This document shows positions 87 to 6,121 of a stretch of DNA of 6,243 bases, in pieces (position 1 is the stretch's first letter; each line of letters opens with the position of its first letter). The stretch spans positions 1-6,243 of the forward strand of contig JAAZVM010000027.1 in the NCBI GenBank assembly GCA_018623505.1. Reading direction: 5' to 3'. This DNA is from Patescibacteria group bacterium (GTDB lineage Bacteria > Patescibacteriota > Gracilibacteria > BD1-5 > UBA6164). A program made the position numbers and the translations under genes. Below the pieces are notes generated by a model. That model saw only the letters and a program-made list of their open reading frames with translations, made no database searches and was not told the DNA's origin.

Positions 87-2783
87 ATGAATAAATTTAT
101 AATTTTTATATCACTTTTTTTCCTACTTTGATGAATAAATCAAAGTTTTTCTGCTTGGTATGATTTTAAACAAGTAACAGCTTCTTGAGAATGTCCTAAT
201 GATTCAGATACTACTTGATGAAAATTTGAATTTAATGTTTGAACAAATTTAAATTGATCGTCAGTTTGTGGTACAACAGTTTCAAATTGAAAATATTTAT
301 GTGACCATGCTGTAGATAGAAATAATGATTGAAAAATCACTACTGCTGACTATACAAGTACTACAAGCAATCAAAAATCAAGTTGAGTTTTGTCATGAAA
401 TAAAATGAATTGTGCTAAATGGGATGCTCAAAATCCTACAGCCTGATATGCTATATCTTGATGAACTACTACAAATAATACATGGTCAAATTCTAATGTA
501 ACTGTTAGTGCAACTTGTAGTGATACTTGATGAAGCTGATGTGATACTACTTCTTATCAGTATAGAGAATCTGATTCAAATTTTACTTGTAATTCTTCAT
601 GAATATGGAATACTGGAACTTCGAAAACATATTCACCATCTAATGAGACAAATTTAGTAAAATATATATGTTTTAGAGTAAAAGATATTGCTGGAAACTG
701 ATATGCTTATAGTAACGTTGCTACTGTTAAAATAGATAAAAAGATTCCAAAAATTATAGATATAACTAATAATGTACCACTTGACTTACTAGCTAATCAT
801 AATTATAATTATAATTTTTCTGTATGAGTTAATGGAGGTTCACCTATTGATTCTATTAAAATAGAAAAAGAAAAAGATATTGAACCAAATGATCCATATG
901 AACCATGGGATGACTATTATACAGATGATTGTGATAGTTGATCATGTAATGTAATTTGGGATATTTCTGAAGTAGATAATTTTAGAGAATCAGATTTATC
1001 AAGAGAGTATAGCTTTACCATAACTGAAATATGTGATGAAGCATGAAACTGTTGGACTTGAAGACAATCTTATAATCATAATGTGTATGCAAATACAGAA
1101 TCTATTAATACAACTATAATATCAAGTTCTTTAACATCTTGAAATATAGCAGATGGTATAGCTAGGCCATTAACTATTAATTTGAAAGATAATTATTTTA
1201 ATACGATAATTCCAGCTAGCTGAATAAACAGAACAGTAGATTTTAATTTTGATGTAGATAATAATGACTATCAAGATCAATATGGTAGAAATGGAAATTG
1301 AGTATACATAAAATCACCAAATGATTCTACTTTTTCTAATTCTATACCGATATGAGAAAATACTACTCCTTATGAAAATATAATATCTACCGATTGAAAT
1401 TATACTTTTGATTTTAAAGTTTATGCTCCTACAGGCAGCTGATATTATTTTGATATAAATAGTATAACTTACGATATAAATCAAAATAATTTTGATGACA
1501 AAATAGATCAAGGTATTTCAAATTCTAATATTTCATTTAATTTTGCTCCATTATTTACTACTGAGTTTATATGAGAACAAAATGATAATTGATTTAAAAT
1601 AGGACAAGTTCAAACATGAAGCTTGAATATAACAAAAGAAAATACAAGTATCATAACTTCAAATCTAAATACTTATCTTGAATTTTGACAATATAATAAT
1701 CCAGATCATGATACTCATCCAAACTTAGATTTAAGCTATGATAACTGAACTATTATAAGTGAATGACATAAATCAACAGTTTCTTCAAATACTAATTTTT
1801 CTTCATCAACTTGAAGTAATACATTTATTACTTATATGACACAGTCATGATCTGTTGATAATTCACCAGTTTATCTTTCTAGTCATGCATCATATACCAT
1901 TGATTGAAAAGATATAGTTTTAAATACAGATGTTATATGAATGGATCATTATTACTGAACTGCAAACTGAGACTCTTCTGTTTCTTTTGATTGAATAAAG
2001 ATAGTATGAAATACAAATAGTAAATACTCAGATGAAATAATAGAGGGAGAAGAATGAGATAATTATAGTTTAGTTTGAAACTTGGATAAAGCATATATGC
2101 AACAGTTTATAAGAAAAAATGCATATAGTGTTATAAATACAGTTACTCCTGATAATTGAACCAACTCAGTTGCAAACTTGGACTTATCAAATAATGAATC
2201 ATGAGTTGAATTATGAGAAAATATATTATATTTTTGAAAACTATGATGAGCAAATGTATTAAGTTCTAATTCTCAAATAAATTATAGCTGAAAGAAAACT
2301 TTACTTATACATGGTTGAAATTTATATATAAGAAATAATATAGTCGCAAATAACTTAAGTAGTGATATACTAGGTATTATAGTCATACAAGACCAAGAAG
2401 GTAATGGTTGAAAAATATATGTACACCCAGATGTAGCTAGGTTAGATGCTGTAATGTATGCAGATAAGGCACTACTTAGTTATGATTGAAATGAACTTAG
2501 TCCTTTAAATTGAGGTACATCAAGTTATTTAAATAATCAATTGTTTATAAATTGATCTATATTTTCAAACAATACTTTATGAGGTTCTGTTAATAATATT
2601 TGTCCTTATTTTATAGCAAATAGTGATTGTGATAGTAATACATCTCAGTATTATGATTTAAATTATTTGAGAAGGTGAGATGATAATAAATATGATTCTA
2701 GTTATGATGATTATCCTATAATCATAGAGTATAATCCTTTAATTCAAAATAGTCCACCACCACTTTTCTTAAATAAAAAATAA
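87..2783 (+). CDS. Large secreted multidomain surface protein (UGA read as Gly)
   Basis: This 898-aa protein is read in one frame only if UGA is glycine; about 59 in-frame UGA and about 18 GGN codons were counted by hand. The ATG at 87 is the only sensible start: TAA lies in frame at 72, and the codons after 87 give a signal peptide (MNKFIIFISLFFLL, cleavage near S22/A23). Residues 77-88 are an EF-hand or dockerin-like loop, DRNNDGKITTAD. Residues about 138-217 and 225-335 look like Ig-like modules, with DIAGN at 200-204 and DEAGN at 317-321. A segment from 346 (SSLTSGNIADG) faintly recalls invasin-type Ig repeats. The rest is Asn/Ser/Thr/Gly-rich and probably beta-structured. Residues 735-800 begin GKKTLLIHGGNLYI, and the tail is YNPLIQNSPPPLF. 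Twelve of 14 cysteines lie before residue 330. There is no LPXTG motif and no C-terminal membrane helix. Export to the cell surface is well supported; adhesion or host contact is only inference. No named family was recognised. Confidence 0.92.
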
Positions 2784-2813
2784 AAAATCCCTTATGGGAT
2801 TTTTTATTTTTTA
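2774..2813. terminator. Bidirectional terminator shared by convergent genes
   Basis: Positions 2774-2791 and 2796-2813 are perfect inverted repeats of 18 bp around a TTAT loop, with a TCCC/GGGA core. A-tracts on one side and T-tracts on the other supply a U-run in both directions. The TAA of the secreted-protein gene (2781-2783) and the TAA of rpoD (plus-strand TTA, 2811-2813) both lie inside the stem. One 40-bp element thus ends translation and probably transcription of both genes. Confidence 0.9.
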
Positions 2814-4445: not shown

Positions 4446-4459
4446 ATTTATTTAATACC
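4425..4459 (-). terminator. dnaG rho-independent terminator overlapping its stop codon
   Basis: On the minus strand GGTATTAA (from 4459) pairs with TTAATACC (to 4434) around a 10-nt loop, followed by eight T (4425-4432). The left arm is made of the last dnaG codons (Gly-Ile-Lys), and the TAA stop (4448-4450) lies at the arm-loop junction. On the plus strand the same stem is followed by CTTTTTTT, so it could also stop antisense transcription. No other gene occupies the 155 bp between dnaG and rpoD. Confidence 0.8.
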
Positions 4460-6121
4460 GCTTTTTTTAGCTATAGAAATAAGTTTACTATACTCTAGAA
4501 GAGCATTGTTATTTCATAAGTCTATTTCAGATTTTAGCCTTTCAACCTCTTTTTTGTATATTTCTCTATTTAGTGACCATATGACCTTTGATAGTTCATC
4601 TTTTATGTGCTCAGAATTTTCATGTTCAGATTTAGTTTCTATTTCTAGAGATATTCATTTATATTTTTCCTTTTTATCAAGTTCTAGTTTCTGTATATAT
4701 TCACCTCATGATTCAAGCAAATTTTTTAGATCTTTTCAAATACTATCAGGAAATAGTAATTTTTCTTTTATTATTTTGCTATATTCTTTATCTATTATAC
4801 AATATCATATAACATACTCTTCAGCTGTGTATAATTTTTTCTTTTCTTCTATTTGCATTTTACTTGCTTGATGTCTGAATCTTATCTTGTTGAAAGTATC
4901 ATAGATTATATTTTGATTTATATTTAAAAGTTTAGCAACTTCTTTTAGATAAAAATCCTTTTCTATATTATCAGAATAGCTCTTAATTATATCAAGTAAT
5001 TCTATCAATAACTTTCTTTTATCATCTATGGAGTTTATATCAAACTTTGATTTTTTGATATAAAATCAAATAGGAGTTAGAGCATTTTCTATGTACTCTG
5101 AAAAATCTTTTCAAGAGCTTATTATTTCGTCAGGATCTTTTCAATTTGGAAGAGAAATAATTTTTACTTCAAAACCTTCGTTTTTCATTTTTTCTAGACT
5201 TGCTTTTGTCGCTTTTTCTCAAGCAGAGTCTCAGTCAAAACATAGGTATACTTTTTTAGTAAGCCTTTTAATAAGAGTAAGATGTTTTTCAGTTAAAGCT
5301 GTTCCAGAAACGGCTACAGAGTTTAAAAATCATCATTTATTTAAAGCTATTACATCCATATATCATTCACATATGATTATATAATCAAGCTTTGTTACTT
5401 GGCTTCTAGCATTGAAAAGATTATATAGTATATTTGATTTATCATAGATTTTTGAAGCAGGGGAGTTTAAGTATTTTGGTTCTCATTTTCAGTGAATCCT
5501 ACCTGCAAAAGCTACAAAGTCTCATCTAGAGTTTTGTATAGGGAAAATTATCCTGTCTATAAATTTATCCTTTTTTGATCTTATATCTAGAAAAATTTGA
5601 GAATCTTCTATTTGAGAATCTTCATATCATTTATTTTTTAGATAGTTATATAGATTTAAACCAGAGTCACTATATCAAAAATTGAAATTATTTATTATAT
5701 CTTCATTTAGTCATCTATCATATAAGTATTTTTGTATCTCTGGATAATTTTTTAAAGCATTTTTATAATAATTTGTAGTATCTTTATAAAGAGAATACAT
5801 GTTTTTTTTCTCTTGAAACTTTTCTTCGTTGAAGTTTGTATTTACTTTTATACCTGTATAGTTTCAAAGTATCTCAATAGCATCTTTAAATTCACAATTT
5901 TCTATATCCATTATAAACTTAATAGCTCATCATCATTTATGACATCCAAAACAATAAGCTAATTGTTTTGCAGGACTTACTACAAAGCTAGGAGTTTTTT
6001 CATTATGACCAGGAAAAGGACAATTACATTTGTAATTTGCCCCTGCTTTTTTTAGACTAGCATATTTTCATACTAGGTCTACTATATCTATTGATGATTC
6101 TAATTCTTCGCTAATTCACAT
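4448..6121 (-). CDS. dnaG: DNA primase DnaG, UGA read as Gly
   Basis: DnaG synthesises the short RNA primers that start leading strands and Okazaki fragments, normally bound to the replicative helicase DnaB. This 557-aa frame has about 25 in-frame UGA and 10 GGN codons. The zinc-binding domain has C34 and H39 (CPFPGHNEKTPSF) plus C57 and C60 (CFGCHKGG). The RNA-polymerase core has YLYDRGLNEDIINNF, DRIIFPIQNSRGDFVAFAGR and PKYLNSP. The Toprim domain has the catalytic EGYMD at 252-256, SGTALT at 272-277 and DGD at 296-298, then KDPDE. The glycines in EGY and DGD are UGA codons. Residues from about 345 to the end are Lys/Glu-rich, helical and divergent, and should be the helicase-binding region. 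Length is slightly below the usual 580-650. ATG at 6121 gives the expected N-terminus (ISEELESSIDIVDLVGKY), and its second codon is UGA. No Shine-Dalgarno sequence precedes it. The gene begins 5 nt after the stop of an upstream frame, suggesting cotranscription. Confidence 0.97.

Follow-up and report, generated by a model that had tools for sequence, protein, structure and literature searches.

Members of Candidatus Gracilibacteria (BD1-5/GN02) are assigned NCBI genetic code 25, in which UGA encodes glycine instead of terminating translation. Proteomics has proven this reading in a population related to the one considered here; PMC4032931, in its available text, gives 97 unique peptides with glycine at UGA against three with tryptophan, and at the highest stringency 40 against one, with single peptides for alanine, lysine and aspartate. 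BD1-5 genomes are described as using code 25, with prfA present and prfB absent (PMC6851277), and as using TGA heavily as a glycine codon (PMC10746230). According to the accessible part of PMC8629427, UGA was inferred to be glycine in 13 of 15 Gracilibacteria species, the other two having release factor 2 (RF2) and no transfer RNA (tRNA) with the anticodon UCA. Here we analyse a stretch of 6,243 bases (the window) which is the whole of contig C81 (JAAZVM010000027.1) of the bin GCA_018623505.1, a Patescibacteria group bacterium (597,319 bases in 115 contigs, completeness 64.5%, contamination 0.19%), and which carries orf1, the sigma factor gene rpoD and the primase gene dnaG. All along this contig UGA is a sense codon. 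In RpoD and DnaG its positions fall chiefly on glycine columns, from which it is predicted, with near certainty, to be read as glycine. This assignment is correct, but it is the established code of the group and not new. A second codon, CGG, which is probably, though less securely, read as tryptophan in the same genome, matters more.

With TGA taken as a stop, the longest open reading frame (ORF) in any frame of the window has 131 amino acids. The runs free of TAA and TAG reach 899, 494 and 558 codons in orf1, rpoD and dnaG, stop counted; when each gene span was shuffled 300 times by mononucleotides, the maxima were 197, 208 and 180 codons. In-frame TGA codons number exactly 100 in the three genes, each of which stops at TAA. 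A first-pass annotation, made from the letters alone, had counted about 100 and had described the three genes as open only if UGA is sense, and both statements hold; its estimate that about three of four glycine codons are UGA also agrees with the window, where TGA makes up 100 of 137 (73%), next to GGT (26), GGA (9), GGC (1) and GGG (1). Bin-wide ORF and codon counts cover 28 of the 115 contigs (196,073 bases, guanine-cytosine (GC) content 26.0%), in which TGA accounts for 2,410 of 3,578 glycine codons (67%) in 151 ORFs. ORFs of at least 100 amino acids cover 79.7% of these contigs under code 25 and 8.4% under the default code 11, so that the meaning of UGA governs the readability of every protein on the contig. 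It is exceedingly improbable that the genes are decayed, or that UGA is read through, skipped or used for selenocysteine at special sites, as the 100 UGA codons of the three genes come with no in-frame TAA or TAG and no visible frameshift, the 151 ORFs hold 2,410 more such codons under the same reading, and conserved core enzymes are among the genes concerned.

Across 26 relatives, the ratio of TGA to GGN codons ranges from 117:54 at 25.6% GC (G006) to 5:162 at 53.3% GC (G058). By inspection, TGA tends to make up less of the glycine codons as GC rises, though not strictly (G015 has 65:70 at 24.7%). The low GC content of the present genome (26%) would likely have made UGA its commonest glycine codon.

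The residue at UGA was examined in DnaG against 65 standard-code loci, with TGA masked; none of the matches holds an in-frame TGA. Columns with at least 40 residues were scored, which applies to 19 of the 25 TGA columns. The summed log-odds over these columns were +14.4 nats for glycine, −17.2 for alanine, the next residue, and −38.3 for tryptophan, placing glycine ahead by about 32 and 53 nats, respectively. As a control, the same procedure was applied to the 28 other codons that have five or more columns and recovered the standard meaning of 24, the failures being AAG, ACA, GCA and TCT. Where one residue makes up at least 80% of a TGA column (n = 12), this is glycine in eight, alanine in two, asparagine and serine in one each, and tryptophan in none. 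In RpoD, with TGA entered as X, the three best sigma factors in PDB show glycine, by eye, at 10/12, 9/12 and 10/11 aligned TGA positions. Alignment to the two families, as the first-pass annotation had proposed, thus favours glycine at UGA, with no tryptophan among the conserved columns.

The individual motifs named in that annotation fared less uniformly. TGA encodes the glycines of EGY (codon 253) in DnaG and of LIQEGN (codon 291; cited as EGN) and FGVTRER (codon 464) in RpoD, as claimed, and the EGY position is glycine in all four displayed PDB primases. The glycine of DGD in DnaG (codon 297) is also TGA and is matched by glycine in three of the four primases, but its description as nearly invariant does not extend to the 65 standard-code homologues, which have serine in 52, methionine in 12 and asparagine in one. 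The DG of an EF-hand-like loop in orf1 does carry TGA (bases 330-332); all named homologues of orf1 are Gracilibacteria, so this site has no standard-code comparison.

The other reassignment of UGA in bacteria is to tryptophan, as in code 4 (Mycoplasma and insect symbionts), which shares with this genome the loss of UGA as a stop and the low GC content. A tryptophan reading is nevertheless a vanishingly small possibility here. UGA lies off the tryptophan columns, as the strongly negative DnaG sum indicates, and tryptophan stands at no TGA position in the three best sigma factor alignments or in a fourth, more divergent one (7ye1). The tryptophan pair of RpoD (codons 316-317) is written TGG TGG, among 10 TGG codons in the window, in keeping with the earlier remark that tryptophan stays TGG, and the UCA tRNA of the family is of the glycine type (see below). 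The exclusion of a UGA-tryptophan code in the first-pass annotation is well supported by these data. UGG stays tryptophan and is likely read by its own tRNA(CCA).

Several observations weigh against glycine at UGA. The DnaG comparison set is redundant and mostly of Lachnospiraceae type. Glycine leads in 10 of the 19 DnaG columns that could be scored, not in all; codon 18 aligns mostly with serine, codon 65 with asparagine, codons 86 and 263 with alanine, codon 297 with serine, codon 327 with tyrosine or histidine and codon 352 with leucine or phenylalanine, while RpoD codon 321 aligns with alanine in the displayed sigma factors. In addition, tRNA scans of the bin (64.5% complete) and a pattern for the anticodon arm turned up no tRNA-Gly(UCA). 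The non-glycine columns fit ordinary substitution, yet still scatter. UGA could also be mostly glycine and partly ambiguous, with some insertion of tryptophan or other residues, as hinted by the few UGA-tryptophan peptides of the related population (3 beside 97, or 1 beside 40). We regard this as unlikely, although less so than a full tryptophan code; low-level mixing is beyond sequence data, and the available text of PMC4032931 itself asks whether the tryptophan peptides are real or an artefact.

Termination agrees with glycine at UGA. The release-factor domain PF00472 has one match in the bin, a 359-amino-acid release factor 1 (RF1) which itself contains 16 UGA codons and matches RF1 in PDB with an E-value of 1.6e-105, compared with 2.5e-63 for the best RF2. 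RF2 was not found by this search in the bin, given its completeness of 64.5%. Genomes of the same order were sampled for comparison (n = 60, own bin included, of which 36, again with the own bin, belong to the same family). Exactly one PF00472 match was present in 54 of the 60, two in one (G015) and none in five that are 78-87% complete; in the relatives these are counts of copies, not sorted into RF1 or RF2. The absence of prfB, which the first-pass annotation had suggested looking for, is in line with these counts. Loss of RF2 is also known from code-4 bacteria. The alignment of RpoD to PDB sigma factors reaches residue 491 of 493, supporting TAA as its stop, and UAA and UAG are the only stops needed. 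The ORF ends in the 28 contigs (134 TAA and 17 TAG) are stops by construction and no test of stop meaning. In G015, one of the two release-factor matches (G015:C153:10152-10478, L178) is without TGA; it may be a genuine second factor or stem from contamination.

The bin yielded fifteen tRNAs, including tRNA-Gly(UCC), and a looser threshold adds one weak match. A tRNA with the anticodon UCA is present in the relatives G017 (1,343,103 bases in one contig; L231:126-204) and G029 (L247:109-187). The core of its anticodon arm, searched as a pattern of 23 bases with at most three mismatches, occurs in 51 of the 60 genomes (44 exact), among them every one of the 35 other members of the family. As a control, the pattern in reverse matched one genome of 60. 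The core was matched neither in the own bin nor in eight sister-family relatives among the 60. In 30 of 30 copies extracted from the 51, the acceptor bases are G1:C72, C2:G71 and G3:C70, with U73, which correspond to glycine identity as applied in the consulted part of PMC8629427. The tRNA-Gly(UCA) expected by the first-pass annotation is therefore seen in the 35 further family members examined, but was not found in the incomplete bin itself. Genes flanking the tRNA in relatives (five loci) were not found in the 28 of 115 own contigs, which says little.

Because tRNA-Gly(UCA) is seen in the relatives and not in the own bin, the decoder of UGA in this genome is inferred: UGA would be decoded by a tRNA-Gly with the anticodon UCA, whose gene is probably just missing from the incomplete assembly, and which would be charged by the same glycyl-tRNA synthetase as tRNA-Gly(UCC). 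ARAGORN labels the UCA tRNA as tRNA-SeC (selenocysteine) in both cases run (G017 and G029), which is the point in favour of selenocysteine at UGA. Against it, cysteine is outside the top three residues at TGA columns, and the tRNA has 79 bases and glycine identity elements. Throughout the family (L231, L247, L253-L282) this length is kept and the anticodon arm is nearly invariant. The Rfam tRNA model returned no UCA among 33 matches in G009, although the pattern finds tRNA(UCA) there. Counts of 'missing' tRNA(UCA) from standard tools may thus be wrong.

The eight order members without a core match are G030, G031, G036, G038, G053, G056, G057 and G059. That UGA is unassigned in them was considered and dropped, as ORF coverage rises with TGA as sense in the five examined (without a control): G030 from 0.42 to 0.89, G031 from 0.76 to 0.92, G036 from 0.56 to 0.85, G038 from 0.83 to 0.94 and G059 from 0.53 to 0.97, the gain being small for the two GC-rich ones among them. 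Their tRNA(UCA) has probably only diverged. A tRNA-like match of 139 bases in G009 (G009:C8:46982-47120, L209) carries roughly 65 additional bases around the anticodon and may be a tRNA that has an intron or has decayed; the idea that it is a hidden tRNA(UCA) was dropped on account of A73 and C1:G72, read by eye.

Taken against NCBI code 25, the locus shares UGA as glycine at conserved columns, UGG as tryptophan, low GC, RF1 as the only release factor found, a family tRNA(UCA) with glycine identity, and DnaG neighbours that are metagenome-assembled genomes of Ca. Gracilibacteria at up to 71% identity. No departure from this code was found here for UGA. Code 25 keeps CGG as arginine, however, and in this respect the genome probably differs. 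CGG is predicted as tryptophan in some Gracilibacteria and as arginine in others in the accessible part of PMC8629427, and tryptophan at CGG in this genome extends that tentative published remark; PMC13092985 is the only later work among the matches listed in our literature search.

The genome encodes a tRNA(CCG) (G000:C18:2687-2760; L017:1498-1574, minus strand) with A1:U72 and G73. These acceptor bases match those of tRNA-Trp(CCA) in G009 and G017, whereas four arginine tRNAs of G009 differ and have A73. No tRNA-Trp(CCA) is among the 15 tRNAs of the own bin; it is present in these two relatives. By pattern, tRNA(CCG) occurs in 18 of the 36 family members, own genome included, and in none of the 24 others; all 17 fully extracted copies carry A1:U72 and G73, the 18th being cut by the end of its locus. 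The tryptophan identity rule in the part of PMC8629427 available requires G73 and A1:U72 without A20. The comparison here covers the acceptor half of this rule; the D-loop, to which the A20 half refers, is unusual, and PMC8629427 makes no call in such cases.

CGG is rare, with 12 occurrences in the 52,104 codons of the 28 contigs and none in the window. The single CGG of RelA (L020:3685-5958), codon 476, lies on a tryptophan column. Of 39 relatives that have a match, 29 were compared, and they show TGG in 19, CGG in eight, and TCT and TAT in one each, and within one genus G004 has CGG and G022 has TGG. The position is tryptophan in PDB 6yxa, the only supporting chain; for 8fr8 and 5iqr the aligner, given arginine, placed codon 476 on the arginine of an RDW motif two residues off. 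The CGG column of RF1 has nothing but hydrophobic or aromatic residues in 30 other genomes (leucine 10, tyrosine 5, isoleucine 5, methionine 3, phenylalanine 3, tryptophan 1, CGG 3). The Obg column is covered by two genomes, with TGG and CGG, and that of a CHAP-like protein, named by eye, also by two, with TGG and AAA. In the other family members, 13 scored CGG columns gave tryptophan in nine, arginine in two, and lysine and glutamine in one each. These counts leave out 23 columns with CGG at tryptophan in G033, G037 and G038, judged to be wrong-strand ORFs. For the own genome, 17 of 22 CGG and CGA rows were left out as ORFs of 103-178 codons taken to be spurious over RNA genes, the RNA gene not being shown for some.

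Other observations count against tryptophan at CGG. Eight of the nine tryptophan-type columns are one RelA column and may represent a single inherited change. PDB columns at CGG are undecided for photolyase (arginine, tryptophan or lysine), Obg (alanine or aspartate), RF1 (leucine) and Def (mixed). G012 and G016 have CGG on an arginine column, G012 also on lysine and tryptophan and G015 also on glutamine, and CGG at the RelA tryptophan column also occurs in G008 and G019, which show no tRNA(CCG) match. CGA columns in the family are arginine or lysine in 29 of 31 and never tryptophan. The persistence of CGA as arginine is weakened by the origin of most of these sites in G012, G016 and G050, which have no tRNA(CCG) match; where the RelA column has CGG, the CGA sites are few (arginine in G017, lysine at 14/22 in G008, glutamine in G019). 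The own bin contributes one CGA site, against a single lysine.

On balance, we lean slightly towards a genome with two reassigned codons, in which UGA, formerly a stop, would mean glycine and CGG, formerly arginine, would mean tryptophan. CGG would be read by a tRNA(CCG) of its own that has the acceptor bases of tryptophan tRNAs, and CGA would still be arginine. Absconditabacteria (SR1) share UGA as glycine, and CGG as tryptophan is reported there in the consulted text of PMC8629427. The difference is that CGA and CGG are both reported as tryptophan in that group, whereas CGA is never on tryptophan columns in the present family, most of these sites being from members without a clear change at CGG. 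If this scheme is true, the CGA/CGG pair, switched together in Absconditabacteria, is split here, and table 25 mistranslates CGG in all 18 of the 36 family genomes with tRNA(CCG), giving the wrong residue at rare and sometimes invariant tryptophan sites. The family would then form a natural series for the change of a sense codon, with CGG as tryptophan, rare, or still arginine.

The nearest named relatives of the DnaG of this contig are Candidatus Gracilibacteria, as judged by sequence comparison. The 15 recoded relatives (51-71% identity in the best segment, 8-28 in-frame TGA each) comprise 12 entries titled Candidatus Gracilibacteria and one each of Ca. Altimarinus, 'Patescibacteria group bacterium' and 'bacterium', which fits the Gracilibacteria/Absconditabacteria code named at first pass. 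Eight of the 15 loci have dnaG-rpoD with a convergent orf1, arranged as in the window; in the other seven, rpoD and orf1 are both absent from the stretch examined, which in four reaches about 4 kilobases beyond dnaG. Among 20 homologues of orf1, six carry an organism name, and all six are Candidatus Gracilibacteria, so that orf1 represents a family found so far under Gracilibacteria names only.

Coordinates of genes and inverted repeats in the window
Feature	Positions	Strand	Description
orf1	87..2783	+	898 amino acids, 59 in-frame TGA, TAA stop; predicted secreted/surface protein
rpoD	2811..4292	-	primary sigma factor, 493 amino acids, 16 in-frame TGA, TAA stop
dnaG	4448..6121	-	DNA primase, 557 amino acids, 25 in-frame TGA, TAA stop
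inverted repeat, perfect 10-bp, AAAAAATCCC-TTAT-GGGATTTTTT	2782..2805	.	between the stops of the convergent genes orf1 and rpoD; read in sequence
inverted repeat GGTATTAA...TTAATACC, then T run on - strand	4434..4459	-	overlaps the dnaG stop codon; read in sequence

DnaG has zinc ribbon, core, Toprim and DnaB-binding domains above Pfam cut-offs and exceeds the NCBIfam equivalog cut-off of TIGR01391 (398.8 bits vs 283.6). RpoD has five sigma-70 domains above Pfam cut-offs and falls under the NCBIfam cut-offs for RpoD, the nearest being TIGR02393 (347.3 vs 354). Its TGA codons are 108, 124, 126, 142, 146, 158, 254, 279, 291, 294, 307, 321, 395, 403, 451 and 464. Pfam and NCBIfam profile searches gave no match for orf1, the N-terminus of which is signal-like as judged by eye. 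An Rfam scan of the window found no RNA family, and a promoter scan gave 48 promoter-like sites, compared with 46.9 in shuffles. A consensus terminator scan of the window listed none, neither inverted repeat included. The repeat between orf1 and rpoD is nonetheless a probable two-way terminator, and the one at the end of dnaG is also a probable terminator.

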